A stretch of DNA of 64,000 nt, taken from IMG/VR virus record IMGVR_UViG_3300026484_000236, positions 103,009 to 167,008 of that record; one strand, 5' to 3'. Under the pieces are notes generated by a model, which was not told where the DNA came from, ran no database searches, and was given only the letters and a program-made list of their open reading frames with translations. Shown here one piece after another: positions 3,963 to 57,966 of this stretch (position 1 is its first letter; each line of letters starts with the position of its first letter). This DNA is from a virus. A program made the translations under genes and the position numbers.

Positions 3963-3979
3963 AAATTAAAGGAAAATAA

Positions 3980-4594: not shown

Positions 4595-4611
4595 AATTAT
4601 AATGATTAACA

Positions 4612-6338: not shown

Positions 6339-6352
6339 TTAAAAGGGAAAAA

Positions 6353-8069: not shown

Positions 8070-8078
8070 AGGAAATAT

Positions 8079-14017: not shown

Positions 14018-14074
14018 ACCCAAAAATTAATATATTTTACTTTATCAAATTATAAATGAAAGGAAATTATTTGT

Positions 14075-14857
14075 ATGGAAATAAATAAACTTCAAGAGTG
14101 GGAAGTAATAAGTCAATGTAATTATAATTGTTTTTATTGTTCTTTACCAAATTATAAAATGGAATTAAACGAAGATATTTTAAAAAAATTTATGGATAAT
14201 ATTGACAAAGATTTAGAATTATTTGTATTTGGTGGAGAACCATTTATGCATAAAAAAATTAAATTTATAATAGATTATCTTAATAAAATAAAACAACCAT
14301 TCGTAATTCAAAGTAATATTAGTACTAAAAGTATCGATATTATTAAAAATAATATAAATAACTTTAACCTACAGTGTAGTGTTCATCCAACAGAAATAAC
14401 AGAAACCGATTTAATAAATAATCTTATCGAATTAAAAAGGTTAAATGATTTAAAAATACTAAATATGAAACGTATAGATATTATGTATATTGGAAAAGAA
14501 TCTATTAGGTATTATAGAATAGTTCAAAAAATTTTTCCAGAAATATGTTATTTATTGCCAATTTCTGGATTTTATAAAAACAATAAAAATTTATGTTGTG
14601 CTTTAAATAAAGAGTATAATATCATAAGATATAAAAAAATATATTCTTGGATAAAATTTGAAGAAAATTATATACTTGGGGAATCAAAGTTCAGATCTGA
14701 ACTTTGGGAAGAACAATGTTCCGGAAAGTTTAGTACCTATGGTAAACCATGTCCATATGATTATGTTCTTTGGGATTCAAAATTAAATAAATATAACTGT
14801 TGTTATAGGGAGATTACTAATGGGTACTGTACAAAAAATGGATGTTTCTGGATGTAA
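14075..14857 (+). CDS. Radical SAM protein
   Basis: 260 aa. C15-x3-C19-x2-C22 (SQCNYNCFYC), FVFGGEPFMH, and QCSVHP in the region where neighbours have LS-HP. Cys-rich end: EQCSGKF, KPCPYDYV, YNCCYREI, YCTKNGCFWM. TATAAATG lies just upstream in the short gap, so an internal promoter is possible but not shown. Confidence 0.8.
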   Translation: MEINKLQEWEVISQCNYNCFYCSLPNYKMELNEDILKKFMDNIDKDLELFVFGGEPFMHKKIKFIIDYLNKIKQPFVIQSNISTKSIDIIKNNINNFNLQCSVHPTEITETDLINNLIELKRLNDLKILNMKRIDIMYIGKESIRYYRIVQKIFPEICYLLPISGFYKNNKNLCCALNKEYNIIRYKKIYSWIKFEENYILGESKFRSELWEEQCSGKFSTYGKPCPYDYVLWDSKLNKYNCCYREITNGYCTKNGCFWM

Positions 14858-15671
14858 AGTAATACAATTTTCTTTAAGAATTACCGAACTATGCAATAGA
14901 GATTGTTCATATTGTCATTATCATTCAAATATAGATTATAATAAAAAGGATATTATGAAAATAATAGATCAGTGTGTATCATATGCTAAAGAAAAAAATA
15001 GAACACCTTTGTTTTATTTTCATGGAGGTGAACCAACATTATCGAAATATTTAATAGACTATTTAAAATATATTAAATATTTAAATTCAAATAGTATCAT
15101 TGAATTACAGACTAATTTCGATAACCCCGATCTTATAATAAGTAGTTTGGATTATATTGATTTATTAAATATAAGCTTTCATTTTGAAATTACAAATAAT
15201 AAAATTATAACATATAAAGATAAATTAAAGTATTTTAAAAATAAGAAATTATTAATTAAATTAAATTATATCGATTTAATGGTAATTAAAAATAATATAA
15301 AAGATATCATTTTTTTAAGAAAATATTTTAATTTGTTAAATATTCGAACTGAAATTACTTATAACTATTTTCAAAGTGATAGTTTTGAAAATTTAGTTAA
15401 ATCAAAAATAAAATTAACAAAACAAGAAATAGAAAAAAATAAATATTTTGCTGGGGAAATTACAGTACCCGATAATTATTTATGTGATACTTCCTATTAT
15501 ATTATTATTAATGGAAATGGAGATTTATTTAAATGTAGTTATAGTTTAACTCAGAATGCTCCAACTGGAAATATATTAAATGGGGACAACTTAAAAGATA
15601 CAATGAAAAAAAGTTTATGTGAATTTAAAACGTGTGGTTATGAATTAAGCTATTTACAAGATTTTATTTAA
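14820..15671 (+). CDS. Radical SAM protein with SPASM-like tail
   Basis: 283 aa. C25-x3-C29-x2-C32 (ELCNRDCSYC), FHGGEPTLS. The tail LCDTSYYIIINGNGDLFKC followed by PTGNIL and LCEFKTCGYE is the classic first half of a SPASM domain (C ... G-D-l-y-C ... iGNi). ATG at 14820 has AGGGAG at good spacing; an in-frame ATG six codons later is possible. Overlaps the previous gene by 38 nt. Confidence 0.83.
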   Translation: MGTVQKMDVSGCKVIQFSLRITELCNRDCSYCHYHSNIDYNKKDIMKIIDQCVSYAKEKNRTPLFYFHGGEPTLSKYLIDYLKYIKYLNSNSIIELQTNFDNPDLIISSLDYIDLLNISFHFEITNNKIITYKDKLKYFKNKKLLIKLNYIDLMVIKNNIKDIIFLRKYFNLLNIRTEITYNYFQSDSFENLVKSKIKLTKQEIEKNKYFAGEITVPDNYLCDTSYYIIINGNGDLFKCSYSLTQNAPTGNILNGDNLKDTMKKSLCEFKTCGYELSYLQDFI

Positions 15672-15686
15672 ATAAAAGGATATTAT

Positions 15687-16502
15687 ATGAGCGAAGATAT
15701 TAGAAAGGTACATAAAAAAAATAGGGAATTGGTTAATAATCTTATAGATAAAATAAATAATCAATTTAAAGATAATAGTTTTGAATTAGTTGTTAAACTC
15801 GATACCTCTTTATCGGATGAAGAAATTCATAAATTAGGTGGTCTTACAATACCCTTACCAATAAATCGAATTGTTTATCATGGTGCTTATAAATTACTTG
15901 ATATAGATACATATAATTTAATTAAGGATAAAGAAAATAATTTTTATATTGATTTAGAATTGTTTACTGAGATACTCAATAGAAAATTTAGATATTTTCT
16001 ATTATTTTATACCGGTGAAAAATTTGATATAAAAAAATTTAATTTGGGAATATTAACTGAATGGAATAAATGCGACAGTTTTAAAATTTATTTAGAAAAA
16101 CTTAAAAAATTATTTACCACAGATGCCGATAAATTATTTGAAAATATTTTTTTATCAGATCTTAATTTTTTTAAGTTAGAAGATATTATAGAAATGTTTA
16201 AATATATAACCGAAATACCAGAATCTAATTTAACTTTTGCAACAGATACAATAATTAAAACTAATTACAAATCTGAAATTATAAATGTAGATCCATATAA
16301 TAAAAACCTAGGAAAAATTGATTATTTAAAAGGTTTGAATATAACTAAAAAAATAGAGAAGAATTTAAATAATTGCAAATACACTTTTTTCCCAAAAAAT
16401 ATATCAATTGACTATGATAATTTATTTTTTTTAAAAAATGAAAATTATTATTTTTTAATGCAACATTTACTTTTCCCAACTTTTCGGGATAGTACATGCT
16501 AG
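15687..16502 (+). CDS. Unknown protein in the radical SAM island
   Basis: 271 aa, no recognised family. Few Cys and no Fe-S motif. The middle is helical (about 100-200); the N-terminal part (residues 36-75) has VVKLDTSLSDEEI and PINRIVYHG. Overlaps the following radical SAM gene by 7 nt, so it is part of the same unit and could be a partner or substrate-binding protein. Confidence 0.6.
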   Translation: MSEDIRKVHKKNRELVNNLIDKINNQFKDNSFELVVKLDTSLSDEEIHKLGGLTIPLPINRIVYHGAYKLLDIDTYNLIKDKENNFYIDLELFTEILNRKFRYFLLFYTGEKFDIKKFNLGILTEWNKCDSFKIYLEKLKKLFTTDADKLFENIFLSDLNFFKLEDIIEMFKYITEIPESNLTFATDTIIKTNYKSEIINVDPYNKNLGKIDYLKGLNITKKIEKNLNNCKYTFFPKNISIDYDNLFFLKNENYYFLMQHLLFPTFRDSTC

Positions 16503-17446
16503 ATTCCAAAACTTTTCAGGGAATTGATCATAAAATACAAAGATTATATATTCATTGGGATATAACTACAAAATGTAATTATAACTGTAACTACTGTTAC
16601 GCTAAATTAGATTATTCTAAAGAAAATAACTGGCAAAATGAATCTAAAATTAAGGATATAAATAATATTATTACTAGCCTTCGATTTAGTACTCTTCCCG
16701 TTTTCTTGGGATTGCTTGGTGGAGAACCAACGGAATCTAAAAACTATTTTTATATTTTAGAAGAAATACAAAATAAAATATTACCAAGACATAAAGATAA
16801 TAGATTATATATAACTACTAATCTTAATCAAGATATAACATATTGGGAAAAACATCCTAAAATAAAAAATACTTTTATATTATGTAGTTTTCATCCAGAG
16901 TATTTCAAAAATTTAACAGAAGAAAGAATAAAATTATTTATCGAAAAATTAGAATATTTAAATAAATATTTTAAAGTAAAAGTTAATATAATGTTAGATC
17001 CAAAATATGATAATATTACTAACGAATGGTTAAAATATTTACCAAATATTTCTAAAGAAATAATAATACATCCACATATTATTTATCCAGATGGAAATCC
17101 ACACAACGATTTACAAAAATTATATAAAACCTCTTTAAATAAATATCAAGAAATATATAAATATATGGATAAAGAATATGAATATATTATAAATGATAAA
17201 AAAGAATATCTTAATGATATTGAGGTTTTTTCAAAAAATCTCACTTTTAAAAATTGGTCATGTTATCAAAATAACTATGAAATATCATTTAATGGTTTTG
17301 TAAGTAGTACTTGTTTTCCTGGAACATTTTCTTTAGAAACTAATTTAATGTATTTTAAAAAAATTAAAAAAATATTACCAAAAAAATGCCCTCATGATTT
17401 TTGCAACTGCGACGGATTATTAAAATGTCAAAAAATATTAAATTAA
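16496..17446 (+). CDS. Radical SAM protein with C-terminal Cys cluster
   Basis: 316 aa. C27-x3-C31-x2-C34 (TKCNYNCNYC), GLLGGEPTES, CSFHPEY. Tail Cys: SCYQNNYEISFNGFVSSTC, KKCPHDFCNCDGLLKCQ. Similar in order and motifs to the enzyme at 8079. Ribosome binding site before the ATG is poor (CGGGAT), so translation probably depends on coupling to the overlapping gene before it. Confidence 0.82.
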   Translation: MLDSKTFQGIDHKIQRLYIHWDITTKCNYNCNYCYAKLDYSKENNWQNESKIKDINNIITSLRFSTLPVFLGLLGGEPTESKNYFYILEEIQNKILPRHKDNRLYITTNLNQDITYWEKHPKIKNTFILCSFHPEYFKNLTEERIKLFIEKLEYLNKYFKVKVNIMLDPKYDNITNEWLKYLPNISKEIIIHPHIIYPDGNPHNDLQKLYKTSLNKYQEIYKYMDKEYEYIINDKKEYLNDIEVFSKNLTFKNWSCYQNNYEISFNGFVSSTCFPGTFSLETNLMYFKKIKKILPKKCPHDFCNCDGLLKCQKILN

Positions 17447-18042
17447 GTATATTAATACCAACTCATGATAGACCAGAACAATTACAAAAATGTTTATTAA
17501 GTATTCGTAAAGCAAATATACAAATACCTTATGAAATTATTATTAATTATGACGACGATTCTATTAAGGATATAAATTTTAATAAATATAAATTACCAAT
17601 TACTATTTATAATGCTTCTTTTATTAATTGGGGGCAAGTATATAATTTTTTATATAAAAAATCAAATGGTGAATATATTTATTATTTAGAAGATGATGAT
17701 ACTTTATTAACATCATTTGATTTTGAATTAAAAAATGATTATTGTTTTGGATTATATTATCCAAACGCTAGAGAAAATAGTACTTTAAAAAATTTTAGAA
17801 AATCATTTAAAAAAATATGGAATAAAACACATACAGAACTATTTAATTATTATAATATTCCAGAAAAATTCGATCATTTTCAATTAGGTCAAATAATAAT
17901 TAAAAAAGAAATAATTAAAAAATTTCCAAAGACTGATAATAAATATAACGATTATTATTTATTTTTTAGAAATAGTGGAAGTATTAAATACATAAATAAA
18001 TTATTTTATAAACAAGGGAAGTCCCATTATAATGTCTCATAA
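17425..18042 (+). CDS. Family 2 glycosyltransferase (GT-A)
   Basis: 205 aa from the ATG at 17425, which gives the standard GT2 beginning (IKLSILIPTHDRPEQLQKCL); an upstream TTG at 17401 is less likely. YYLEDDDTLL around residue 90 supplies the metal-binding D-x-D. Shorter than typical GT2 enzymes (about 250-300) but the nucleotide-sugar half is complete. Overlaps both neighbours, linking sugar transfer to the radical SAM genes and the following sugar-metabolism genes. Confidence 0.75.
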   Translation: MSKNIKLSILIPTHDRPEQLQKCLLSIRKANIQIPYEIIINYDDDSIKDINFNKYKLPITIYNASFINWGQVYNFLYKKSNGEYIYYLEDDDTLLTSFDFELKNDYCFGLYYPNARENSTLKNFRKSFKKIWNKTHTELFNYYNIPEKFDHFQLGQIIIKKEIIKKFPKTDNKYNDYYLFFRNSGSIKYINKLFYKQGKSHYNVS

Positions 18043-18763
18043 AACAACAAAACAATTACTTCAATACAGTATTGATAATAATCTAAAACATATACCAAGC
18101 GCTCTTAGTCAATTCTCATATCTTAAATACTTATTACCAAAGTTTGATTACAGTACGACGAATATTGTAATTGGTAAGCCTTTTGGTTCACAAGCTTATT
18201 ATATGATTTGGAAAGAACTTGGTTTAATTAAAGACCAAAAATTATCTTATGGGGTCAAACACGAAGAGTTAGATTTTATTAATTACAGCGAAGAAACTCT
18301 TGGAAATGCTTTAGGTATAGGAGCAGGTATTGCTTTAGGAAGTCCGGATAAGCTTACTTATGTTAACTTAAGCGACGGTGCTTTACAAATGGGTCCAACA
18401 TTAGAAGCTATACAATTTATAGGAAAACATCAATTAAATATGTTAATTACTATCGATTTCAATGGTATGCAATTAACGGATTCTCTTCAAAACGTTTCTG
18501 GTATTAATTGTTTTAATATAGAAGATATGTTTAAAATGTATAATATAGAAACTCGTTTTTATGATACTAAAGTTTTAAATGATTATGGAATGAATTTAGT
18601 TATAGATAATGTTTTACAAAAGCAAAAAGAAAGTAAAAAACCAGTAGTAATTATTTTTAATACTACTAAAGGTCAAGGCGTTAAAGAAATGGAAGAAGAT
18701 CCAGTACTTTGGCATTATAAAGAATTAAAAAATATTGAAGATATAACTATCTTAAATAAATAA
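18032..18763 (+). CDS. Transketolase-like N-terminal (TPP-binding) subunit
   Basis: 243 aa. NYSEETLGNALGIGAGIALG, YVNLSDGALQMGPTLEAIQF and LITIDFNGMQLTD match the TPP/Mg site of transketolases (GDG...N motif, here SDG), and NTTKGQGVKEMEEDPVLWHY matches the segment closing this domain. Only the first domain is present; the pyrimidine-binding domain is in the separate gene at 19380. Split transketolases occur in some bacteria, including in sugar-precursor clusters. The G-to-S change in the GDG motif may alter metal binding. Confidence 0.72.
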   Translation: MSHKTTKQLLQYSIDNNLKHIPSALSQFSYLKYLLPKFDYSTTNIVIGKPFGSQAYYMIWKELGLIKDQKLSYGVKHEELDFINYSEETLGNALGIGAGIALGSPDKLTYVNLSDGALQMGPTLEAIQFIGKHQLNMLITIDFNGMQLTDSLQNVSGINCFNIEDMFKMYNIETRFYDTKVLNDYGMNLVIDNVLQKQKESKKPVVIIFNTTKGQGVKEMEEDPVLWHYKELKNIEDITILNK

Positions 18764-18775
18764 AATGGAGATAAT

Positions 18776-19378
18776 ATGATATTAATAACTGGAGAAAATG
18801 GATATTTGGGAAAAGCTTTTATTAATTATTATAAATATTATTCTGGATTTAATGCTAATTTTATAACTCTTGCCGATTATTTAAAAAATCCTTGTCCAAC
18901 AAAACTTACAAAAATCATACATACTGCTGGAGTATCGGATAAAGAAGATTTTAAAAATGTTAAAAAAACTACAAATTCAATGATATTATTAACTCAGCAA
19001 TTAGTGGATTTAGCGGAACAAAATAATTTAGAATTTATATTCTTTAGCTCAGAAGCTGCTACCAATGATTTAGATATATATGGTACTTATAAAAGAGCTA
19101 TGGAATTTTATATAAAAGCTTTTTTAAAAAATTATAAATTATTAAGAATACCAAGAATTTATTCAGCCGATAGAAAAAAGGGTTTAATTAAACAACTAAG
19201 AAATAACGAAGTTCCAGAAAAAGATTATGAAAAAGAAATTGAATTTTTAGATTTAGATAATTTAATACCTCAGTTATATCATTATATATTTAAAGAAACT
19301 TCTAATAGAGTTTATTATTTTAAAAATTTAGAAACTAAAACCATTCGAAAAATAAAGGAAAGATATTTAAAGGATTAA
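18776..19378 (+). CDS. NAD-dependent epimerase/dehydratase-like protein (short SDR)
   Basis: 200 aa. ILITGENGYLGKAF is the Rossmann dinucleotide motif, IIHTAGVSD the following strand, FFSSEAA the serine-bearing strand, and YGTYKRAME the Y-x3-K catalytic pair. Truncated relative to usual extended SDRs (about 300 aa), with a small C-terminal half. It sits between the two halves of the transketolase, suggesting one sugar pathway. Confidence 0.7.
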   Translation: MILITGENGYLGKAFINYYKYYSGFNANFITLADYLKNPCPTKLTKIIHTAGVSDKEDFKNVKKTTNSMILLTQQLVDLAEQNNLEFIFFSSEAATNDLDIYGTYKRAMEFYIKAFLKNYKLLRIPRIYSADRKKGLIKQLRNNEVPEKDYEKEIEFLDLDNLIPQLYHYIFKETSNRVYYFKNLETKTIRKIKERYLKD

Positions 19379-19379
19379 T

Positions 19380-19838
19380 ATGCGTAAATTAATGGCAGCT
19401 TATTTAAAAAAAGAAGAATACTTATTACATGCTGATATGTTTAATACTAAAAACTTTCCAACAAAAGCCAAGGTAATTAATATTGGTCTTGGCGAAAGTA
19501 ATTTATTAAATATCACTGGTGGTTTATCTAGTCTTGGTAATACGGTATATATTTATGGAGTTGCTGGTTTTATAATTCATCGATACGAACAATTAAAATT
19601 TAGTTGCAGAGATTTTGGTTCTAAGAATGGTAAAATAATTATATGTAATGCTGGTAAGTACGGTTATGAAACTTTAGGAGCTGGGCATAAATTAGATGAT
19701 GATTTGGGAATTATGGAATTATCAAATATAGAATATTTTCAACCAGAAACCTTAGAAGATATGAAAAATATTTTAGAAACTTTGGATAAAAAAGAAAATG
19801 GAATATACTATATCCAATTAGGAAAAGATCTTTCTTAA
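19380..19838 (+). CDS. Transketolase-like pyrimidine-binding subunit
   Basis: 152 aa. VINIGLGESNLLNITGGLSS corresponds to the transketolase segment with the catalytic Glu (GiaEqnm...aaGLa); GVAGFIIHRYEQLKF and YGYETLGAGHKLDDDLGIM follow in the expected order. The third transketolase domain is missing. Together with 18032 it would give a TPP enzyme with both cofactor halves on separate chains. Last gene of the island, followed directly by the hairpin at 19839. Confidence 0.65.
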   Translation: MRKLMAAYLKKEEYLLHADMFNTKNFPTKAKVINIGLGESNLLNITGGLSSLGNTVYIYGVAGFIIHRYEQLKFSCRDFGSKNGKIIICNAGKYGYETLGAGHKLDDDLGIMELSNIEYFQPETLEDMKNILETLDKKENGIYYIQLGKDLS

Positions 19839-19896
19839 TTTAACGACAGGAAAAAACTTATAGAAATTAATCTATAAGTTTTTTCCTGTCGTTAAA
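19839..19896. terminator. Perfect bidirectional hairpin with CCTGTC on both strands
   Basis: 26-nt arms pair perfectly around a 6-nt loop (AATTAA). Each strand reads a T-run followed by CCTGTC at the outer end of the arm. It separates convergent units, so it probably ends both. It is the symmetrical form of the hairpin-CCTGTC elements seen at other gene ends. Confidence 0.85.
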
Positions 19897-37010: not shown

Positions 37011-40000
37011 ATGGAGAACTATACCGTAATCAAAAGAGACAATAGAATCGAACCATTTAATTCGGAAAAAATACTAACTCATTTTAAACATGCATGTGAA
37101 GGTTTAAATATGGATCCTTTTGAAATTTTTAGTAATTTCAAAATACGTCTTAAATCAGAAATGCATTCTAAAGATATTCAAACTTCAGCTATTTTTACAG
37201 CAGCTGATATGATAGATAAAAATAATCCCGATTCCCAATTCCCACCAGCTCGTCTTATGCTTCAAGATCTTTATAAAGATATTTATGGAAGTTATAATCC
37301 AGAATTTAATGCCGGTACTCTTAGAGAAAGAGCGGAAAAAGGTTATTATGATAAAGAATTATTCTTTTATTATACAGATGATGAAATAAATGAATTATCA
37401 AAATGTATTGATTACAATAATGATTTAAGATTTACTTATTTAGGATTAAATCAACTTATTAAAAAGTACAGTATTAAAAGAGATAATAAGCCTATTGAAA
37501 CTCCACAAGAAATATTCTTCTTAATACCTTTATATATTTTTGCGACTATTAAGGATAAGAAATTTCGATCTAAAATGGTTTTAGAATTTTATCAAGCTTT
37601 AGCAGTATTCGATATATTTTTACCTACTCCAGGAATGGTTGGTATTCGTACTAATATGAAAGGCTGGACTTCGTGTTTTAAACCAAACACTTTAATAAAA
37701 TTAAACGAATTTGATTTTATTGAAATAGGGGACATTAAAATAGGCGATGAAATTTTAACTTCTTTTGGGAATTATAAAAAAGTTACTAATATTATCAAAT
37801 CTTTTAAAAATAAATTTGTAAAATTAAATACTATTTTTTCAGAAGAACCTTTAGATAGTACCGATAATCATCCAGTATTTTCTATAATTAAAGAAGATAT
37901 CTTATGTGCTAGAAATCCATCTGGTGGAGATAAATTTGGAAAAATTTGTCCCATAAGCCAAGGAAATTATAAATATTGCCTTAGTACTAAAAATTATTAT
38001 AAAAATAATTGTTCAGGATTAGATAAAATTTTTGATTTATCGATAGCGGATTATAACGAGGCTGGTAATTTGGATATTGGTGATTATATTGGAATTCCTA
38101 TACCAAGAAAAATTATTTCAAATACATTAAATATTTTCGAATTAATTCAAAATGAAAAAGGTATTAAAAATAAAAAGTTTGAAGTACTAGATGAAAAAAT
38201 AGTTTCTAGAAATATTGATAAAGATCATATAAATAATGGTAATGCTGGAATAAATAAATTAATAAAACCAATTAATAATTTTATTACTATTGATAATAAT
38301 TTAATGGAAGTTTTTGGTTGGTTTTTAGCAGAAGGTTCATCATATAAAAAAGGACAAACCTTTATATTTACAGTAAGTACGGACGAGGTTAATTATTTAG
38401 AATTTATAAACGAAACTATTTATAAACATTTTGGAATTTATGGAAATATTAGTATTAATTACGAACCAACTAAATATGCAGTTCTTACTTTTAATTCTAA
38501 AATTCTTAAAACCTTTTTTAATTTAATTCTTAATAATATTAAAGATCAATATTATAAAAAAGATGGCTATAATTTTAATAATATTTTATTATTTCAAGAA
38601 CCGGAATTACAAAAATATTTTTTAAAAGGTGCTTATTTAGGAGATGGAAGTTTTAATAAAACTTCTGGAACTTTAAAAATATCTTTAAAAGATAAAAAAT
38701 TTATAGAACTTTTAAAAATAATGCATTTAAGAAATGGTCATAAAATTAATACAAATATTGAAAAAAATAATGTATTAAAAAATCCAAATTCCAGAGATTC
38801 GTATAATATTAATATTAAAGCTTCATTAGAAAAAGAATTTATAAAATTCGTACAAAAACATACCAATGGTTACGATAAAGATTTTTATGATAATTTTAAT
38901 TATAAAGAAAATATTCATTATAATGGTGGTTTCTTTTTAGAAGATTTTTATTTTACTAAAATTACTAAAAAAGAAGAATATTTAGATAAAGATACAGAAG
39001 TAATTGATATTACAGTGGAGGACGACCATACTTTTATCGCAGGTGATTATGCAGTCCATAATTGCTCAGGTCTTGATTTTGGAGATAGTATAGAAGCTAT
39101 TGCAAATGGTAGTAAATCTCTTTATAAATTAATTACTAAACTTCGAGCAGGTATTGGAGCAAATATAGGAAACATTAGAGGTTTAGGAGCAGATATTGGA
39201 AATGGTTTTGAAACACATACTGGTATAACTCCTTATGCAAAAGCTAATGAAGCAATTTCTAGAAGTAGTACTCAACCAAATTCTGGACGTTCCGGAGCAA
39301 TTACAAATTACTATCCTTTCTTCCATATTGAGATAGAAGATATTCTTCAACTTAAAAATAACAAAGGTTCTGACGAAGCTTCAGTTAGACATTCAGATCA
39401 TGCAATTATATTTGATCCTGTGTTTAGAAAACGCCTTGATAATGACGAAGATATTTCATTATTTTATATAAATGATGTTGGAGAATTATATAGTCTTATT
39501 GGGACTTCGGAATTCGAAGCAGAGTATATTAAATATGAAAAACTAGCTGAAGAAGGGAAAATATTTAGAAAAGTTATTAAAGCATCTTCTTTAGAAGATA
39601 GATATTTTCATGAAAGATATATTACTGCTAGAAATTATAAAGTAAATGCAAAGGCTATGCAAGAACACAGTGCATTTAATTTACCAGTATATACTTCGAA
39701 TTTATGTACAGAGATAGCCTTACCAAGTTTTCCAGATGAGGATTATATTATTAATGTTCTAGATCAAAATAATTATCAATTATTTATAGAAGGTCTTTAT
39801 AAAGATGGTAAATGGTATCAACTATATAGATTTATTAGATATGGTGTTATTGATGAAAAAAATGCTTGGGTAGTAGATATCCATTTAAGTTTCTTAGATA
39901 ATTCTGATAATTCCAATAAATTTACTTTAAATTTTGGAGAAATATTTTCTTGTATTCTTGGTGGAATTAACTTTGGTAATCTTAGTACAGATCCAAAAGT

Positions 40001-40901
40001 ACGTAGACAACAGTTCGAAAAAAATATGTATCTTATGGTTTATTTCTTAGACGAAATGATAGATAAACAGGATTATCAGGATATTAAACCATTTGAAAAG
40101 TTTACTAAAAATAGAAGAGCTCTTGGAATTAGTCCAGGAAATTATTTCTATATGTTAGCTAAGCATGGATATAACTACGATACTCCAAAAGCTAGAGCAT
40201 TAACAGCAGTTGTATTCGAAGAGTTTCTTTATTATGGTTTAAAAGCTAGTAATGAAATAGCTAAGGAAAAAGGATCATGTAATTATTACCAAGATACTAA
40301 ATACTCTAAAGGTCAATTACCAATAGACACTTATGAAAGAAATGTGGATTCTTTATACTCTTTAAAATCTTTACCAATGTCTCAAGCAATTAGTATTACT
40401 TTGGACATGTGGAAACTTCTTAGAAAAGATATTCAAAAATATGGTTTAAGAAATAGTACTTTACTTACAGCAGTTCCTAGTTCGAATTCTAGTAGACCTG
40501 GAAACATGATCTCAGGAATTAATCCCCCACAGGGTACAGAATATAGTATCGAAGATAACAATATGAAAATTACGGCTATTCTTCCTAATTCAAAAGAATA
40601 TGATTCATTTTATGAATATAATTCCGCTTGGAATTTAGATATTATAGAATACTGGAAACTTATTGCTATTATGCAAAAATTTATTGACCAAGCAATTAGT
40701 ATTAATGAGTATGTTGATTTTACAAAATATCCTGATGGAAAAATTCCAAAATCCGAAGTAATCAGAAGAGATTTATTTACAGAGTTGTTTGGAATTAAAA
40801 CATTGTATTATGCTAAAACTAAAACAGATAATGATACAGAAGAACTCCAAGAAGTTATTTCAGATGATGAAGGATGTTCTGGTGGTGGATGTACGTTATA
40901 G
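37011..40901 (+). CDS. nrdA: Class Ia ribonucleotide reductase large subunit with intein
   Basis: 1296 aa, of which residues 222-684 are an intein, leaving an 833-aa enzyme of normal size. Residues 1-95 look like an ATP cone (YTVIKRDNRIEPFNSEKI). Redox Cys C685 (the +1 residue of the intein) and C981, thiyl Cys C899 in SNLCTEIALP, and a C-terminal C1289-x4-C1294 arm are all present; the C685-C899 distance (214) equals that of E. coli NrdA. Reduces ribonucleotides with NrdB. An extra 60 residues between C899 and C981 is unusual. Heads a unit with a ClpP-like gene and nrdB. Confidence 0.95.
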   Translation: MENYTVIKRDNRIEPFNSEKILTHFKHACEGLNMDPFEIFSNFKIRLKSEMHSKDIQTSAIFTAADMIDKNNPDSQFPPARLMLQDLYKDIYGSYNPEFNAGTLRERAEKGYYDKELFFYYTDDEINELSKCIDYNNDLRFTYLGLNQLIKKYSIKRDNKPIETPQEIFFLIPLYIFATIKDKKFRSKMVLEFYQALAVFDIFLPTPGMVGIRTNMKGWTSCFKPNTLIKLNEFDFIEIGDIKIGDEILTSFGNYKKVTNIIKSFKNKFVKLNTIFSEEPLDSTDNHPVFSIIKEDILCARNPSGGDKFGKICPISQGNYKYCLSTKNYYKNNCSGLDKIFDLSIADYNEAGNLDIGDYIGIPIPRKIISNTLNIFELIQNEKGIKNKKFEVLDEKIVSRNIDKDHINNGNAGINKLIKPINNFITIDNNLMEVFGWFLAEGSSYKKGQTFIFTVSTDEVNYLEFINETIYKHFGIYGNISINYEPTKYAVLTFNSKILKTFFNLILNNIKDQYYKKDGYNFNNILLFQEPELQKYFLKGAYLGDGSFNKTSGTLKISLKDKKFIELLKIMHLRNGHKINTNIEKNNVLKNPNSRDSYNINIKASLEKEFIKFVQKHTNGYDKDFYDNFNYKENIHYNGGFFLEDFYFTKITKKEEYLDKDTEVIDITVEDDHTFIAGDYAVHNCSGLDFGDSIEAIANGSKSLYKLITKLRAGIGANIGNIRGLGADIGNGFETHTGITPYAKANEAISRSSTQPNSGRSGAITNYYPFFHIEIEDILQLKNNKGSDEASVRHSDHAIIFDPVFRKRLDNDEDISLFYINDVGELYSLIGTSEFEAEYIKYEKLAEEGKIFRKVIKASSLEDRYFHERYITARNYKVNAKAMQEHSAFNLPVYTSNLCTEIALPSFPDEDYIINVLDQNNYQLFIEGLYKDGKWYQLYRFIRYGVIDEKNAWVVDIHLSFLDNSDNSNKFTLNFGEIFSCILGGINFGNLSTDPKVRRQQFEKNMYLMVYFLDEMIDKQDYQDIKPFEKFTKNRRALGISPGNYFYMLAKHGYNYDTPKARALTAVVFEEFLYYGLKASNEIAKEKGSCNYYQDTKYSKGQLPIDTYERNVDSLYSLKSLPMSQAISITLDMWKLLRKDIQKYGLRNSTLLTAVPSSNSSRPGNMISGINPPQGTEYSIEDNNMKITAILPNSKEYDSFYEYNSAWNLDIIEYWKLIAIMQKFIDQAISINEYVDFTKYPDGKIPKSEVIRRDLFTELFGIKTLYYAKTKTDNDTEELQEVISDDEGCSGGGCTL
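37674..39062 (+). other. Intein with LAGLIDADG endonuclease in nrdA
   Basis: 463 aa, in frame within nrdA. Starts Cys-FKPNTLIKL, then IGDIKIGDEIL (block A), TDNHPVFS (block B), LAGLIDADG-type motifs FGWFLAEGS (about 434-442) and FLKGAYLGDGSF (about 535-546), VEDDHTFIAGDYAVHN (blocks F/G) and a Cys at +1. All splice residues are present, so it should be active. The insertion is directly before the catalytic Cys, so the enzyme is inactive until splicing. Confidence 0.93.
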
Positions 40902-46637: not shown

Positions 46638-47486
46638 ATGTTTCAATCTATATCGGAAGAAGCTTATACATCGAATACTCCTGTAAAAATTTTAGAAGAA
46701 TCTATGGTTCCTGGAAGTACGGATTCGAGACTAATTTTTAGAGCGGTTTTGCAAGAAGCTAATGTTATTAATAATAATAAGAGAATGTACCCAAGCGAGA
46801 CTTTACAAGCTATCGTTTATCAATTAAGAGATAAAGCAAGAACTCGTAAACTACTTGGAGAATTAGATCATCCACAACCTCAAGGGGATATGGCTGCTAA
46901 AATGAAAAGAAGTAGTACTATTCTTTTACAGAACGTTTGTGTACTTTTCAGAAAACTAGATTTTATTGATGGTAAAATATACGCCGAAGTAGAAACTCTT
47001 AATACACCAAGTGGTCGCATCGTTAGAGATCTTTTAAAAGATAATATTAGTATTGGATTCTCTTTAAGAGCATTTGGAAGTACTAAAAATGAAAATGGAA
47101 CTACAGTAGTTCTTGCAGATGATATTAAAGGTTTAACTTTTGATGTAGTTTGTATGCCATCGCATGATAATGCCCTAATTCAAGAATTCTTAGCTGAGGG
47201 TGAAGAAGCTTCTGCGAAAGATAAACTTAAAGAATTACTTCAAGAAATGACTGAATACAAAAAAGCTCTTCAAAACGAAGTTCATCCCCAAATTATGGAA
47301 GAATCAAGAAGTCTTTTTGAAAGTATTAGAGAAGATGGTAAAGCCGCTATGGAAGGAATGACTGGACAAGTATGTATTAATGGTATATGTATGGCTAGAC
47401 CTCTTAACGAAAGTATTGATTACTTAGTAGAACAATCCCTTAAAATGGATACTACTAAATATCAAAAAAGTATTAAACTTAAATAA
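46638..47486 (+). CDS. Prohead core protease (T4 gp21 type)
   Basis: 282 aa. FRAVLQEANVINNNKRMYP, LLGELDHPQPQ with catalytic H78, and ISIGFSLRAFG with S142, are the hallmarks of gp21-type (peptidase U9/S80) maturation proteases. The residues KILEES at 17-22 match its own likely cleavage signal, suggesting self-processing. The C-terminal half is helical and probably acts as scaffold anchor. Many other proteins here carry the same L-E-E-[S/A/G] leader, making them candidate substrates. Ends 1 nt into a hairpin-CATGTC element. Confidence 0.87.
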   Translation: MFQSISEEAYTSNTPVKILEESMVPGSTDSRLIFRAVLQEANVINNNKRMYPSETLQAIVYQLRDKARTRKLLGELDHPQPQGDMAAKMKRSSTILLQNVCVLFRKLDFIDGKIYAEVETLNTPSGRIVRDLLKDNISIGFSLRAFGSTKNENGTTVVLADDIKGLTFDVVCMPSHDNALIQEFLAEGEEASAKDKLKELLQEMTEYKKALQNEVHPQIMEESRSLFESIREDGKAAMEGMTGQVCINGICMARPLNESIDYLVEQSLKMDTTKYQKSIKLK

Positions 47487-49391: not shown

Positions 49392-49967
49392 ATGATTTTA
49401 GAAATAAATAAAAATTTACTAATCCAAGAAGCTACTAAAATTTTAGAAGAGTCTAATCATACTGGAGATGCTAACTTAGATAAAAGAGCCGCTGCTAAAA
49501 AAAACATACATGAATTTAAAAAAGTTACTCAAGCTAGAACAAAAATGGCAAAAGAAATAAAAGCTAAAAGAGCGGATGCTAAAAAACTAGAAAAAACTAA
49601 CGAAAAAATTAGAAAAGAAGGATCTAGAATTACATTTTCGGATAAAAGAAAAGCTTTAAAAGATTCTATAGATCATGGTTTTAAAGGTTCAATAAAAAGA
49701 TATAAAAAAAATATAACGAATACAAAACTGGAAAAAACCAGAAAGTTATTAAATGCCGGAACTAAAAACACGAAAGAAGAAATTAATAAATTACATAACG
49801 AAGCGCGCACAATATCCAGTGGAAATAAAATACCAGTTGGTCAAGAAACTAAAAAATTTGCTTTACCAGCGCATCGAGAAAATAAAGCAGGTGTTCAAAT
49901 AAATACTAGAGCGAGTACTTCAAAAAATTTAGATGAAATTGATCCAGAATTAAGATATAAATATTAA
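49392..49967 (+). CDS. Leader-bearing very basic protein, probable packaged protein
   Basis: 191 aa. MILEINKNLLIQEATKILEE followed by S gives a near copy of the leader at 36184. The remainder is extremely Lys/Arg-rich helix (AKRADAKKLEKTNEKIRKEG) without hydrophobic core, fitting an internal head protein or DNA condenser. Followed by a hairpin-CCTGTC element. Confidence 0.57.
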   Translation: MILEINKNLLIQEATKILEESNHTGDANLDKRAAAKKNIHEFKKVTQARTKMAKEIKAKRADAKKLEKTNEKIRKEGSRITFSDKRKALKDSIDHGFKGSIKRYKKNITNTKLEKTRKLLNAGTKNTKEEINKLHNEARTISSGNKIPVGQETKKFALPAHRENKAGVQINTRASTSKNLDEIDPELRYKY

Positions 49968-50001
49968 ATAACTAAGGAACTATCCTTAGTTATTTCCTGT
50001 C
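49967..50001 (+). terminator. Hairpin-CCTGTC terminator
   Basis: 12-bp stem AATAACTAAGGA around ACTA, then T and CCTGTC. Marks the start boundary of the signalling cassette. Confidence 0.8.
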
Positions 50002-50058: not shown

Positions 50059-50511
50059 ATGACAGAAGAACAAGTAAAAAAGAAAATAGAAGATTTCCGC
50101 GACTCATATATAAAAAGTTATAATTCTCCTAGTACTCAAATGGATTTAAGGGAACATTTTTATTTAGTTCGTGATGAATCTAAAACAATACATGAACTCA
50201 TGGCATTAATGTACGATGATATACATAAAGTTATGACTGATAATAAAAATCAAATACTTACTTTAATGGATAAGAGTATTCAAGCTGATACAGAATTATA
50301 TAATTATTTATTAACTATAGAAAAAAACTCTGGTAAATTTAATAAACCAAAACCTAAAAAAGAATGGCATACTTGGTCAAATTTATTTAAAATACCAGTA
50401 CTTCTTGGAAGTACTATAGCGGTATTATTATTACTATACGAAATTGACTCAACCGCATATACCGCTATTATAGATCATATAATGTTAGCAATCGAAGAAT
50501 TTAAAAAATAA
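50059..50511 (+). CDS. Membrane protein with C-terminal span, first gene of signalling cassette
   Basis: 150 aa. Cytosolic-type helical part (1-105) rich in charged residues, a basic KPKPKKEWHTW stretch, then one membrane segment at about 113-128 (IPVLLGSTIAVLLLLY) and a short tail. No signal peptide. No family recognised. Its unit also encodes a receiver protein and a sensor kinase, so it may be their membrane partner. Confidence 0.55.
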   Translation: MTEEQVKKKIEDFRDSYIKSYNSPSTQMDLREHFYLVRDESKTIHELMALMYDDIHKVMTDNKNQILTLMDKSIQADTELYNYLLTIEKNSGKFNKPKPKKEWHTWSNLFKIPVLLGSTIAVLLLLYEIDSTAYTAIIDHIMLAIEEFKK

Positions 50512-50523
50512 ATAGGAAAACAA

Positions 50524-51243
50524 ATGAATATTTTTGAAAAAATAAAAAGTTATTTTATAGAAGAAGAACAAGAAGAAGAACAAGAAGAACTCGATTATCT
50601 TAAACCAATGGATCTTGGTTCAAATAATTATAAAATAGAAATACCAGAAATAAATATAAACAAAGAAGCTATATTTAATAAAGATCTTAAAACAATATTT
50701 ATTATGGATGATTTCGATGGAATGGCTGAATTAATCAAGGATGAATTATATCAGGCAAGATGCTGTAATGTAAAAGAATATTTTAATATAATAGTAAGTA
50801 CTGGAATATTTGCTGGTTTTAGTATAAGAAATTTATTAATGAGTAATCCAGATTTAATTATAGATATAGCTTTTTTAGATATTACTTTAGGTGGTATTAT
50901 TAATGGTGAAGAATTAGATGGTATAGATATTGCAATTCTTTTAAAAGAACGTAATCCAGATTGTTTAATTAAATTTGTAACTGGACATACTCTTAATAAA
51001 CATAATCCGGAAATATTTAAATTTATTCATAAATTTGAAACCACCTTTAAAGTAAAAATGGATGAAATCGAAGAAACTTCAAGTAGTAATAATGGAGATA
51101 TTAAAATTTATAAACATGTTATAAATAAAACTAGTAATCGTAAAGAATTAATAGAATTAACACTACATAATTATTTTGACAAATTTATTATTGGTAAACA
51201 AGACGGAGTCTTTGAAAACACCAAATACGATTTAGTAAATTAA
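50524..51243 (+). CDS. Response-regulator-like receiver protein
   Basis: 239 aa. After an acidic N-terminal 45 residues, a receiver-type fold: TIFIMDDFDGMAEL (acidic pair D62, D63), DIAFLDITLGG with likely phosphate acceptor D119, and IKFVTGH with T153 as the switch residue. An insertion lies between strand 3 and helix 3. No DNA-binding output domain is seen; the last 70 residues are unassigned. Gene lies 9 nt before the kinase. Stand-alone receivers often act through protein contact. Confidence 0.65.
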   Translation: MNIFEKIKSYFIEEEQEEEQEELDYLKPMDLGSNNYKIEIPEININKEAIFNKDLKTIFIMDDFDGMAELIKDELYQARCCNVKEYFNIIVSTGIFAGFSIRNLLMSNPDLIIDIAFLDITLGGIINGEELDGIDIAILLKERNPDCLIKFVTGHTLNKHNPEIFKFIHKFETTFKVKMDEIEETSSSNNGDIKIYKHVINKTSNRKELIELTLHNYFDKFIIGKQDGVFENTKYDLVN

Positions 51244-51252
51244 GGATACAAT

Positions 51253-52728
51253 ATGGAAACCTCTAAAATGGGAAGTTTATATCATGCTTCTGGATCAATA
51301 TTTTTTAAGTATCTTGGTTTAATAACTATATATACTTTATTAATGGGAGCAGTACTTGGTAATAATTTTCACAATATAGTTCACATGTATAAAGAAAATT
51401 TAAAAAACACCGTAGTAAAAACAATTGAAGAATATCACGAAATAGATTTACAACATATTTGTACTATTTCAAACTGTTCTCAAATTGGTTTTATAAATAG
51501 AAATAAATCATACGTATTAAAAGATGGCAAATTAATAAAAAATAATAATCGTAAAATAATTAATATTTATTGGAAATTGAATAAAATTCCAATAATAGAA
51601 AATACTGTTAATACAGCTTTTAACGAAGACCTACATAAAAATATTATAATAACTTTACCAAAATATAATTTGTATTTATCAAGTAATAGTTATTATACGT
51701 TAAGCGAATTACTAAAAGGGTATTTTTATATTTATGTTATATTTATAATACCTATTACTTTTATATTTTTTATATATGAATTTAAATTATCAAGACGAAA
51801 AGCTTTAGATGTTATAAATACTAGCAGTATTCTTAGAGAAAAGAATATGCAAATACTTACTGAAAATATACATCATGAATTAAATACTCCAGTAGCTATT
51901 ATTCAAGGATCTGTTTTAAAAATAGAACAATCTTTAAAAAGACAATATGATATTTCGAAAAATTGTTTTAAAACATGTGCATTAACCGAACAATTTAAAG
52001 GAATAGATTTTGACATGATTTATTCGAGTATTGATCAAATTGGTACAGTACTAGAAAGAATGAGTAATTTTAAAAATCTCAAATACAGTAATGGTAATAA
52101 AACATTATTTGATATTTTAAATTATTCGGCTAATTCTATGAGTATTTATAAAGCTTCTTATTTTGAAATTATAATTGATCCAGCATTTGAGGAATGGAGT
52201 CTTAAACATGGAGATGGATATTTAAAAAATGCTGATTTATTAAATATAATTTCTAATCATTTAAGAAATAGTATAGAAGCCAGTGCCACAAAAATACATC
52301 TACAGCTAAAAGTATCTGATACTAAAAATGAAAAAATAAAATTAATACATATATTTATAATTGATAATGGGACTGGTCTTAGAGATCCAGATACTGGATT
52401 ATTACTATCTCCATCAAAATATCAAAATATTTTTAAAGATTATTACAGTTCTAAAAATAAAAATGGAAAATCTAAAATTTATAATTCAAAAGGTTATATT
52501 TTAGATTTAGTACATATTTTAAAAACGAAATTTACTAAAACAAATCGATTTTTAAAAATAGCACCAGAACCAGTTAAAGAAGATAACGCAAGAGGAGTAG
52601 GATTATATTTAAATAAGGAATTATTACGGGATAATCATGGAAATTTAAAATTAAGGGAAACCTCCGAAAAAGGAACTGTTTTTGAAATTACGATTCCAGG
52701 AATTAAAGCAAAAAAAGAAAATTATTAA
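51253..52728 (+). CDS. Sensor histidine kinase
   Basis: 491 aa. Two membrane spans (about 18-37 and 156-175) enclose a 115-residue periplasmic sensor domain without recognised fold. H box NIHHELNTP with H208, N box SNHLRNSIEAS with N339, G1 box IIDNGTGL (371-376), G2 box ARGVGLYLNK (446-455), and the final strand GTVFEITIPG are all intact. So this is a complete, probably active kinase with a receiver encoded just upstream. Phage-encoded histidine kinases are rare. The ATP-lid region is long (380-445). Confidence 0.85.
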   Translation: METSKMGSLYHASGSIFFKYLGLITIYTLLMGAVLGNNFHNIVHMYKENLKNTVVKTIEEYHEIDLQHICTISNCSQIGFINRNKSYVLKDGKLIKNNNRKIINIYWKLNKIPIIENTVNTAFNEDLHKNIIITLPKYNLYLSSNSYYTLSELLKGYFYIYVIFIIPITFIFFIYEFKLSRRKALDVINTSSILREKNMQILTENIHHELNTPVAIIQGSVLKIEQSLKRQYDISKNCFKTCALTEQFKGIDFDMIYSSIDQIGTVLERMSNFKNLKYSNGNKTLFDILNYSANSMSIYKASYFEIIIDPAFEEWSLKHGDGYLKNADLLNIISNHLRNSIEASATKIHLQLKVSDTKNEKIKLIHIFIIDNGTGLRDPDTGLLLSPSKYQNIFKDYYSSKNKNGKSKIYNSKGYILDLVHILKTKFTKTNRFLKIAPEPVKEDNARGVGLYLNKELLRDNHGNLKLRETSEKGTVFEITIPGIKAKKENY

Positions 52729-52742
52729 CATAAGGTTGAAAT

Positions 52743-53120
52743 ATGAAAAAACTATTTTTGGGCAAACCAACATTATTTTTTTATATATTTTTATTATTAA
52801 ATTCTAATTTAATCGCTCGAGAAAGGATTAAAAATATTAATAAAGATTATTCAAATGGTACTTGTACTGTACTTTTTAAAGAATATGATATAGATCCAGA
52901 AGTTCGTTCCCCTAAAGGATGGTATCGTATTTATAAAGAAGGAGCTCTAACAAATTATTTACATATACACTACTTAAGTACGAAAAATGAAAAAAAGTTA
53001 TCGGATTGTCTAATTAATAATGGTTTTAAAATAGAAAAATACCAAAGAAGTATTGGAGATAAAAAAAATAAAAGCTCTATAATACAGAATAGAAAGGAGA
53101 ATAATTATGAAGATAATTAA
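52743..53120 (+). CDS. Small secreted protein with two cysteines
   Basis: 125 aa. Signal-peptide-like N-terminus (KLFLGKPTLFFYIFLLLNSN, then LIARE). Mature part has two Cys (NGTCTVLF and LSDCLINN) that could form a disulphide in the periplasm. C-terminus is polar and basic. No family recognised. Ends 14 nt inside the outer-membrane protein gene, so the two are co-translated. Confidence 0.6.
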   Translation: MKKLFLGKPTLFFYIFLLLNSNLIARERIKNINKDYSNGTCTVLFKEYDIDPEVRSPKGWYRIYKEGALTNYLHIHYLSTKNEKKLSDCLINNGFKIEKYQRSIGDKKNKSSIIQNRKENNYEDN

Positions 53121-54297
53121 AATTATTTTGGTATTAAGCATAGTTGTTCAGTTAGCTATGGCATTCGAATATAAGAATACTAATTATTTAGAAGTGGTAT
53201 ATGGAACTATCACAAGTTCGGAAAATAACGGTGAATATATTGGCTCTCGTCATTTAATAGATATAACGACATTTAATGATTTTATATTTGATAATTTTAG
53301 TATTACTAGTACTATATATTTCTCTAAGTATTCTGAAAGTTATTCTAGAACGTATAATCATATAATTCAGGAAGGGACTCAATTAGAATTTTCAGAATTG
53401 GCTTTAAATACATTTATAACCAACGATGATATATTAACTATTGGGTTATTATCTTTTAAGTATGGAAGTATGTCGGAATATTCTAAAATAGGACTAGAAC
53501 AATCGGATGCTTTATATACTATGTATTATTTAACATTACCTGGAGTATTTTATACTCATCATTTTGATAATGGAAAAATACAACTGGGGTATGCGGAACG
53601 AACAAAATACGAATTATCACCAACAAATCGATATGAACATACTGTACCAGGATCAAACATTGCCTTTTTATTTGCTAGTAAAAATTATTTAAACAATGAT
53701 TTAAAATTTAAATTTAATACGAGTATTTCTGACATAGTTTATGAAAATATATCTGGGGACGAAGATGTTAGTTTAGGTTATTTATATATGTTTGGGATTG
53801 GAATATCCTATGATACTCCTGATTATTCTTTATATGGTATTATAGCCGGTTCAAAAACAGATTTCGATGGAACTAAATTAACACCAAATGAACAACCATT
53901 AATTCTCCCACCAGGATTTACCGATCCAACTAGTCCAGGAGCTTCGTTCACAAACGAAGGTTCTAGATATGGTTATAGTATTTTTTTAGGAGCTAAAAAA
54001 ATAAATTATTTACCAATTATTAAAAAAGATATTTATTATGGAATTGAATATTTTCATAGTAGTAAATATTGGGTATCGGCTGTAACAGATGAGTATAATA
54101 AAGATAGTTATTCTTGGGGAGATCTTGGGAATATTTATAAATTTTATACAGGCGTTAGTTTAACGCCAAAATTAAATATTGGTATTAATTTTAAGTACTC
54201 TGATATTAATTATCAAAAATTAAAAGGTGGTAACGCTGTAGTAAAAACAGATCAATACGATAAAAGAATATATTTTAGATTAGATTATTTATTTTAA
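53107..54297 (+). CDS. Outer-membrane beta-barrel protein (DUF3373-like)
   Basis: 396 aa. Signal peptide MKIIKIILVLSIVVQLAMA with likely cleavage after AMA. Mature part is a string of amphipathic strands of alternating polar/hydrophobic residues, aromatic-rich, ending with Phe (YFRLDYLF) as outer-membrane proteins do. The last 120 residues (DIYYGIEYFHSSKYWVSAV, GDLGNIYKFYTGVSL) resemble DUF3373 barrels of Campylobacterota. Phage-encoded barrels can block superinfection or change host surface; with the kinase and receiver the cassette may sense and alter the envelope. Confidence 0.72.
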   Translation: MKIIKIILVLSIVVQLAMAFEYKNTNYLEVVYGTITSSENNGEYIGSRHLIDITTFNDFIFDNFSITSTIYFSKYSESYSRTYNHIIQEGTQLEFSELALNTFITNDDILTIGLLSFKYGSMSEYSKIGLEQSDALYTMYYLTLPGVFYTHHFDNGKIQLGYAERTKYELSPTNRYEHTVPGSNIAFLFASKNYLNNDLKFKFNTSISDIVYENISGDEDVSLGYLYMFGIGISYDTPDYSLYGIIAGSKTDFDGTKLTPNEQPLILPPGFTDPTSPGASFTNEGSRYGYSIFLGAKKINYLPIIKKDIYYGIEYFHSSKYWVSAVTDEYNKDSYSWGDLGNIYKFYTGVSLTPKLNIGINFKYSDINYQKLKGGNAVVKTDQYDKRIYFRLDYLF

Positions 54298-54327
54298 ATT
54301 CTTGGCTAATACCAAGAATCTCCTGTC
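54298..54327 (+). terminator. Hairpin-CCTGTC terminator
   Basis: 8-bp stem ATTCTTGG around CTAATA, then CT and CCTGTC; starts directly after the stop of the barrel gene and ends the cassette. Confidence 0.78.
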
Positions 54328-56412: not shown

Positions 56413-57966
56413 ATGGCTAAATTAATTGATAATTTAATCCTCGAGAACTATGATATGTTTACGAAAGATCACTCGAATCTTTTCGAAGAAGCAAAAACAC
56501 CAGCTGAGATCATCTTTGATGATTCTTACTTTGATATGTATGTATCAAGTCTTACTAAAGGTCTAGAAGAAAGCGTTGTTGCTAAAATTCTTCCAGTACT
56601 TGATCGTGAACGTAAAATGTTTATTGAGGAAAGTTCAGCTCTTTTAACTTCTCCAGAAGCTATTGCATATGCTGTAACTACTATTCCAATGCTTATTAAC
56701 ATCTATGCTGAGCCACAACTTAGCAAAATCGTTACAACAGTTCCAACTGATATGCCAACTCTTTCTATTTCTAGAATCAAATGGGTATCTAAAGTAATTG
56801 ATGAAAAAGGTGGAGTTACTGAGTACATGTTCCCAACTGCTACTTCAATGATTCGTCCAGATTTCAAACAATTCAAAGTTGCTCAATCTGCAAATCTTTA
56901 TAGCGAACTTGGTATTGCTAAAGGTGATTTCAGACTTTCTAAAAGAAATTTCAAAGTTGTAAGTATCGACGTTGTTGTTGATGATGGTACAAACACTACT
57001 GTTGAAAATGTTCCAGTAACTGCTATCGCAGGTGCTCGTGGTAACTTTACAGTTGATTCTTTTGTTGTTCCAGGTGTAACTGGTGGTGTTTATAAACTTC
57101 AAGGTTCTGTTGACTTTGAATCAGGTTCAATTACATCTTCTGTAATTACTATTGAACCAGGTGACAAAACTGTAACTGAAGATACTATTGAAATTAAATT
57201 CAGACTTTTTGGTAATGGTAATGGTCGTGGTGTTGTTAAGTCAGCTCCAAAACAAGAAATCATTGACGTTAATGCAGATATCGAAGATTCTTTCGAAGTT
57301 GAAAATATTGAAGAAGTAATTCAAGATTGGTCAGCAATTTATAAACTTGATATCATTTCAGAGCTTAAAAACTTTGTAAAAGGTCAAATCAAGTTAAATA
57401 GAGATTTCGAGATTGCTGAACTACTTGAATCTAATATTCCATTTGCTCAATCAATTGGTCAATATAAAGAAGTAGACTTCTCAAGATTTGGATCTGCTGA
57501 TGGTTTCAAACCTTCAAATATCCAAGATATCTTCAAAAATATTGTTCCTACAATTATGTCTCTAGTAGAGAAAATGCGTAAAACAAACAATATGGAAGTT
57601 CAATATCTTGCTTGTGGTGTTGATGTAGCTGTAGTACTTAAATCTCTTCAAGAGTTCGCTGTATCTATGGAAAAAATGAATGGTAACTATTCTGTTCAGG
57701 GTGGAGTTCAATCAGGTTTCAATAAACTTGAAATCGTTGAGTCTTATGCAATTGCTGATGATCTATTACACTTAGTTCTTACTGCACCTGCTACTAACCA
57801 AAGTTCACTTGTTGAAGTACTATTTAAACCTCTTTATATCATTACTGAGACTACTAATAGTATCAAACGTACATTTATCAAATCAAGAACTTGGATTGGT
57901 ATAGTTCGTCAAGAAGGTATTGGTACAATCCGTATCAAAAATTACGAAGGTTTCGTTAACGTATAA
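56413..57966 (+). CDS. Probable major capsid protein
   Basis: 517 aa. Beginning (residues 1-45) is an acidic helical part with NLFEEAK, a possible maturation site like that of T4 gp23. ALLTSPEAIAYAVTTIPMLI, YAEPQLSKIVTTVP, ISRIKWVSKVIDEKGG and the end RTFIKSRTWIGIVRQEG fit an HK97-fold capsid protein of T4-like/jumbo phages. Codon choice differs sharply from the neighbours: many ATC, TTC, AAC and CGT codons, so base composition is visibly less A/T-rich, as expected for the most highly expressed gene. A stem (AAATACTTAA) lies in its leader. Confidence 0.75.
   Translation: MAKLIDNLILENYDMFTKDHSNLFEEAKTPAEIIFDDSYFDMYVSSLTKGLEESVVAKILPVLDRERKMFIEESSALLTSPEAIAYAVTTIPMLINIYAEPQLSKIVTTVPTDMPTLSISRIKWVSKVIDEKGGVTEYMFPTATSMIRPDFKQFKVAQSANLYSELGIAKGDFRLSKRNFKVVSIDVVVDDGTNTTVENVPVTAIAGARGNFTVDSFVVPGVTGGVYKLQGSVDFESGSITSSVITIEPGDKTVTEDTIEIKFRLFGNGNGRGVVKSAPKQEIIDVNADIEDSFEVENIEEVIQDWSAIYKLDIISELKNFVKGQIKLNRDFEIAELLESNIPFAQSIGQYKEVDFSRFGSADGFKPSNIQDIFKNIVPTIMSLVEKMRKTNNMEVQYLACGVDVAVVLKSLQEFAVSMEKMNGNYSVQGGVQSGFNKLEIVESYAIADDLLHLVLTAPATNQSSLVEVLFKPLYIITETTNSIKRTFIKSRTWIGIVRQEGIGTIRIKNYEGFVNV

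Follow-up and report, generated by a model that had tools for sequence, protein, structure and literature searches.

A recurrent histidine kinase-receiver gene cassette with predicted membrane, exported and outer-membrane barrel partners in uncultured large phages

Introduction

Phage decisions are known to be made through repressors, peptides and holin regulators, and T4 lysis inhibition works through RI, T and RIII; to our knowledge neither a kinase nor a receiver takes part in the latter. Among the described systems closest to the cassette reported here are the HisKA-type pairs (HK853-RR468, ZraS, YycG, PhoR), which have in common with it the order TM helix, periplasmic domain, TM helix, DHp and HATPase, the H-box, the N and G boxes and an adjacent cognate receiver, as well as single-domain response regulators such as CheY and Spo0F, which like the cassette receiver are without a DNA-binding domain. 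Another likeness is to the divergent receiver-like domains of large phages: published descriptions of the jumbo-phage cREC have it never linked to a histidine kinase and occurring with NAD/ADP-ribose or RNA-repair genes (PMC7824862, PMC9503650). In the literature that we searched, of which coverage was partial, no kinase-receiver module carried by a phage was described.

Here we analyze a window of 64,000 nucleotides (bases 103009-167008 of a 167-kb IMG/VR virus record), the source contig being that of a T4-like phage. The original prediction, made from the DNA letters, was of a complete kinase-receiver pair with a periplasmic domain and with membrane, exported and outer-membrane partners; this was borne out, and the arrangement recurs as a unit in other phages.

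Layout and genomic setting of the cassette

Five ORFs lie head to tail on the + strand at 50059-54297, the position first reported, separated in order by 12, 9, 14 and -14 bases and preceded by GGA-type ribosome sites. The gene order is tail-anchored membrane protein, receiver, histidine kinase, small exported protein and outer-membrane barrel, and the features of the locus are as follows:

49966..50001, +, upstream boundary hairpin followed by CCTGTC (13-pair stem, 4-nt loop)
50059..50511, +, tail-anchored inner-membrane protein, 150 aa (TM prediction, homologues)
50524..51243, +, single-domain response regulator, 239 aa (catalytic columns, weak Pfam match, context)
50878..50880, +, predicted receiver phospho-acceptor codon D119 (invariant in 11/11)
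51253..52728, +, membrane sensor histidine kinase, 491 aa (Pfam, family profile, AF2/Foldseek, conserved boxes)
51874..51876, +, predicted kinase phospho-acceptor codon H208 (invariant in 13/13)
52743..53120, +, small exported protein, 125 aa (hydrophobic N-terminus, signature SxxGWxR)
53107..54297, +, outer-membrane beta-barrel, 396 aa (DUF3373-like; first 14 bases shared with the exported-protein gene)
54296..54327, +, downstream boundary hairpin followed by CCTGTC (stem search)

The claim of a self-contained five-gene unit between two hairpin-CCTGTC elements held up, as all five ORFs and both elements are present. CCTGTC occurs in the window at 19850 (- strand), 19885, 32073, 34487, 36703, 49996, 54322, 58023 and 59127, at gene-block boundaries, and all nine of these sites have a hairpin of at least 9 pairs directly 5' of the motif; since a hairpin of at least 8 pairs was found at only 27 of 1500 random positions (1.8%), the arrangement is not due to chance. 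TCCTGTC is also found 5' of the cassette in a related contig, L002. The hairpin-(T)CCTGTC resembles a phage element for RNA 3'-end formation or processing, distinct from a plain T-run terminator. Late-promoter-like sites (TATAAATA) were slightly commoner than in shuffled sequence, their count being reached by 4/100 shuffles; the frequency of sigma-70 promoter-like sites was not above that of shuffles, and no Rfam families were found in the cassette region.

The cassette sits in the virion gene region of the window, between a prohead protease (46638-47486) and a homing endonuclease gene on its 5' side and the major head protein (56413-57966) on its 3' side. In this part of the window (49392, 54631 and 55451), in L002 (12347 and 16485) and in L018 (10980), otherwise different proteins begin with M(I/V)LxINKxxLxE, which, near prohead protease or head genes, looks like a capsid-targeting leader of internal head proteins. 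Elsewhere in the window, a long one-strand run of ORFs alike in size (about 150-315 aa; 3384-19838) is possibly a paralogous family, and the 1296-aa ORF of the ribonucleotide reductase large subunit (37011-40901) has its family match in two stretches, which suggests an intein or inserted element.

Recurrence and selection

Searches of IMG/VR and GTDB identified the family kinase on 12 further contigs, 11 of them viral and one a short MAG contig, which with the window makes 13, all of them metagenomic; as the contigs were scanned with exact peptide patterns, this count is a lower bound. With these patterns, 84,980 bacterial and archaeal genomes yielded a single match, the MAG contig L012, which is 5.8 kb long and carries a phage-family gene. 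Among 50,697 phage records, tblastn with three kinases of the family as queries turned up no convincing relative. One further candidate, L019, was dropped as a chance motif match within a dUTPase-like gene.

When the five-gene order was sought in other phage genomes it was found complete in L006, L011 and L024; L021 has it too, with its barrel gene split. The core order of TM protein, receiver and kinase is seen in all loci that extend far enough, and kinase and receiver genes are adjacent wherever both can be seen, except in L022, where one extra gene lies between them. This gene (L022:1365-1961) encodes a membrane protein of 198 aa that is Cache-like by eye and had no match in Pfam or PHROG. 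What follows the kinase varies: L002, with a kinase 77% identical to that of the window, has four of the genes and a 118-aa barrel remnant that keeps the barrel start (EYKNxNYLE); L025 has kinase, exported protein and barrel at the locus end; L007 has two extra receivers directly 3' of the kinase (L007:4687-5491), where the exported protein and barrel would otherwise stand; and in L023 and L026 the cassette ends with the kinase. The L012 and L020 loci are truncated where the retrieved DNA ends.

Between the window and L002, dN/dS was 0.13 for the TM protein, 0.25 for the receiver, 0.19 for the kinase and 0.37 for the exported protein, compared to 0.05 for the major head protein; judged from these ratios, purifying selection acts on all four cassette genes that could be tested. 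The kinase and receiver trees largely agree, with the window grouping with L002 and then L006 and L007, and a second clade standing apart in both trees; L011, which has a long branch, is placed differently in the two. We consider it very probable, on this sequence evidence, that the kinase and receiver form a functional cassette under selection.

The histidine kinase and its receiver

The kinase has its first TM helix at about residues 16-34, a periplasmic domain, a second TM helix at about 156-174, an H-box with H208, and N, G1 and G2 boxes. Its HATPase_c domain scored above the Pfam cut-off (1.1e-8) and its HisKA match was weak and partial; the family profile matched solved kinases at 2e-13, and an AF2 model of moderate confidence (pLDDT 62) matched HK853 by Foldseek at 8e-10. 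The H-box residues H208, E209 and P213 are identical in all 13 kinase sequences, N335 and N339 of the N box and D371 are kept in all kinases covering them, and the G boxes are intact in nearly all members, L021 being without the G1 segment. The clearest conserved feature of the periplasmic domain is a Cys-X4-Cys motif (C70, C75), found in 11/11 kinases having that region, and the kinases of the window's clade and of L011 have a second Cys pair, located in an insertion that separates the DHp helices. No nutrient-sensing Pfam family matched the periplasmic domain. The input to the kinase is probably periplasmic.

The receiver is strongly diverged, with Pfam matches at best 3e-4 across the family and a weak match (0.007) for the window protein alone. 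About 56 residues extend it at the N-terminus, and it has an insertion ahead of the C-terminal Lys segment. D62, D63 and D119 are invariant in 11/11 receivers and the position of T153 is T or S in all 11, while a Lys near the C-terminal strand is present in every receiver, its exact column being ambiguous. The receivers of the two divergent clades align at the profile level (1e-20, probability 99.3%). The receiver profile aligned to CheY-like receivers by hhalign at only 19%, and PDB profile searches gave weak receiver matches or none; due to this the receiver assignment rests on the conserved catalytic columns, the weak Pfam matches and the gene context. An N-terminal amphipathic helix acting as a membrane anchor is weakly supported, the signal being not significant overall. 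No DNA-binding or output domain of the OmpR, NarL or NtrC types was found in the receivers scanned with Pfam, and little sequence follows the receiver domain; output is therefore probably by protein contact.

Membrane, exported and barrel partners

The tail-anchored protein, encoded by the leading gene in all loci that show this position, has a cytoplasmic N-terminal part, one C-terminal TM helix (residues 109-127) and a 23-residue tail. Its sequence is poorly conserved across clades (hhalign 19%), and a single TM helix near the C-terminus is present in 10/10 homologues examined.

The small exported protein had been described as a secreted protein with two Cys. Export fits its hydrophobic N-terminus, and the signature SxxGWxR is common to seven members; the two Cys are not a family feature, as Cys41 and Cys89 are kept only in the window's clade and L011 and the pair is absent in L021, L024 and L025. 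The exported proteins of the two divergent clades join at the profile level (4e-7). An AF2 model (pLDDT 62) of the small exported protein gave no fold match.

The barrel protein has an N-terminal hydrophobic segment and a C-terminal Phe, the latter present at 5/5 C-termini seen. Against DUF3373 (PF11853; cut-off 26.1 bits) the window barrel scored 27.3 bits and that of L006 39.4 bits, and Pfam gave no DUF3373 match for the barrels of L011 and L024; those of the two divergent clades join at the profile level (6e-6). The genes for the barrel and the exported protein overlap or abut in the window, L006, L011, L024 and L025. A coupled outer-membrane barrel, as originally proposed, is thus present in the window and in several relatives; as an obligatory part it did not stand, since L002 has only a remnant of it and no barrel follows the kinase in L007, L023 and L026, and from its distribution the predicted barrel is an accessory of the cassette.

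Neighboring genes, lysis functions and host

In L011 genes for an endolysin and a secreted nuclease, together with one of the DUF1353 family, lie directly 5' of the cassette; in L007 an endolysin of a different family lies two genes 5'; and next to the L020 cassette are genes for a small membrane protein and a weakly Rz1-like (spanin-like) product. In the window's own genome the holin and endolysin genes are about 95 kb from the cassette, and other cassettes lie beside capsid, DNA polymerase, ClpX-like or ribonucleotide reductase genes (the last three named by eye). A general association with lysis cassettes, searched for through the M15_3 peptidase and 3TM holin families, held for L011 only. 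The varied neighbors indicate that the cassette moves between contexts, and they keep the link to lysis hypothetical. Based on the endolysin genes close by in two loci, control of lysis or superinfection by the cassette is plausible, and we advance it tentatively.

The phage also encodes a CheY (G000:C1:55664-56077; L018:5665-6078), 98 kb from the cassette in the same genome; about 1.8 kb downstream of this CheY gene lies a lysis block consisting of a 3TM holin, a secreted DNA/RNA endonuclease and an M15 endolysin. Its best solved match was the Helicobacter pylori CheY (1.8e-39; entry 3gwg, which we take to be this protein), the next kind scoring 5.7e-28, and because of this match the host probably belongs to the Campylobacterota. 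No CheY-like genes were found in the L002, L006 and L011 records.

Proposed function and alternatives

Our best explanation for the whole, somewhat short of an even chance, is that this is a phage-specific two-component cassette that spans the envelope and acts on a late envelope-directed step. The kinase would read the periplasm, either its redox, disulfide or metal state via the CX4C motif or a contact made by the exported protein or the barrel, and would phosphorylate the receiver. The phosphorylated receiver may then act through protein contact at the inner membrane, likeliest on the co-encoded tail-anchored protein, and the output would tune a late envelope-directed step, with lysis timing or a superinfection response being the likeliest. 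We take the tail-anchored protein as the likeliest target or scaffold because it is never missing where its place is visible; that the output passes through it we consider evenly balanced. More tentative is the fuller proposal of a dedicated viral two-component system that engages both membranes, senses the periplasm, takes a lysis or superinfection decision via the receiver on the tail-anchored protein and is swapped as a cassette among large phages.

The barrel and exported protein could instead be the business end of the system, remodeling or blocking the cell surface for superinfection exclusion or receptor replacement, with the kinase-receiver pair tuning them. Their overlapping or abutting genes in five loci and the similarity of the DUF3373-like barrel to bacterial outer-membrane proteins are in keeping with this; however, with one or both missing or in remnant form in L007, L023, L026 and L002, this cannot be the core function, and we regard it as unlikely. 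The same barrel might serve as an uptake porin and the kinase as a nutrient sensor, in an auxiliary metabolic cassette that prolongs host productivity. DUF3373 is in a listed family of outer-membrane pore-forming proteins (PMC4827864), and phages have been reported with phosphorus-acquisition genes (PMC10987575), but a receiver without a DNA-binding domain is not a PhoB-type regulator, and the lack of a match between the periplasmic domain and a nutrient-sensing Pfam family also speaks against this improbable reading.

Host takeover, in which kinase and receiver feed or drain host phosphorelays such as those for motility and the phage CheY is another piece, would accommodate both the H. pylori-like CheY of the same phage and the two extra receivers right behind the L007 kinase. 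It is no more probable than the metabolic proposal, as the kinase has its own conserved adjoining receiver and CheY-like genes were not found in the three other records searched. The kinase and receiver are, of course, bacterial kinds of protein, and they might be recent captures that are functionless in the phage; this we consider very improbable and in effect refuted by the conservation of the cassette across 13 contigs, with low dN/dS, with active sites and order kept across very divergent phages, and with a single relative (by the patterns used) in the bacterial and archaeal genomes, on a short contig with a phage gene.

If the envelope-spanning two-component reading is right, lytic phages would also use phosphosignaling to read the envelope of the infected cell. 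The cassette offers concrete testable residues (H208, D119, C70 and C75) and a fixed gene order, and among uncultured large phages, for which few host-control genes are known, it adds a recognizable unit.

Comparison with known systems

T4 lysis inhibition would be analogous if a periplasmic input of the phage changes lysis behavior at the inner membrane; no sequence relation between it and the cassette was found. In contrast to cREC, the cassette receiver always lies beside a kinase, which places it outside that type, and it differs from CheY and Spo0F in its N-terminal extension, in the insertion before the last Lys segment and in its strong divergence. The window and L006 barrels are above the Pfam cut-off for DUF3373 outer-membrane proteins, whereas the cassette barrel is phage-encoded and coupled to a kinase, and the L011 and L024 barrels are without a family match. 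Compared to the HisKA-type pairs, the cassette is phage-encoded, its receiver is without an output domain, a tail-anchored partner is encoded first, and its kinase has the periplasmic Cys-X4-Cys and a long insertion separating the DHp helices, which contains Cys in the window's clade. Judged by sequence, the parts of the cassette are genuine two-component parts, arranged as a previously undescribed phage-specific cassette.
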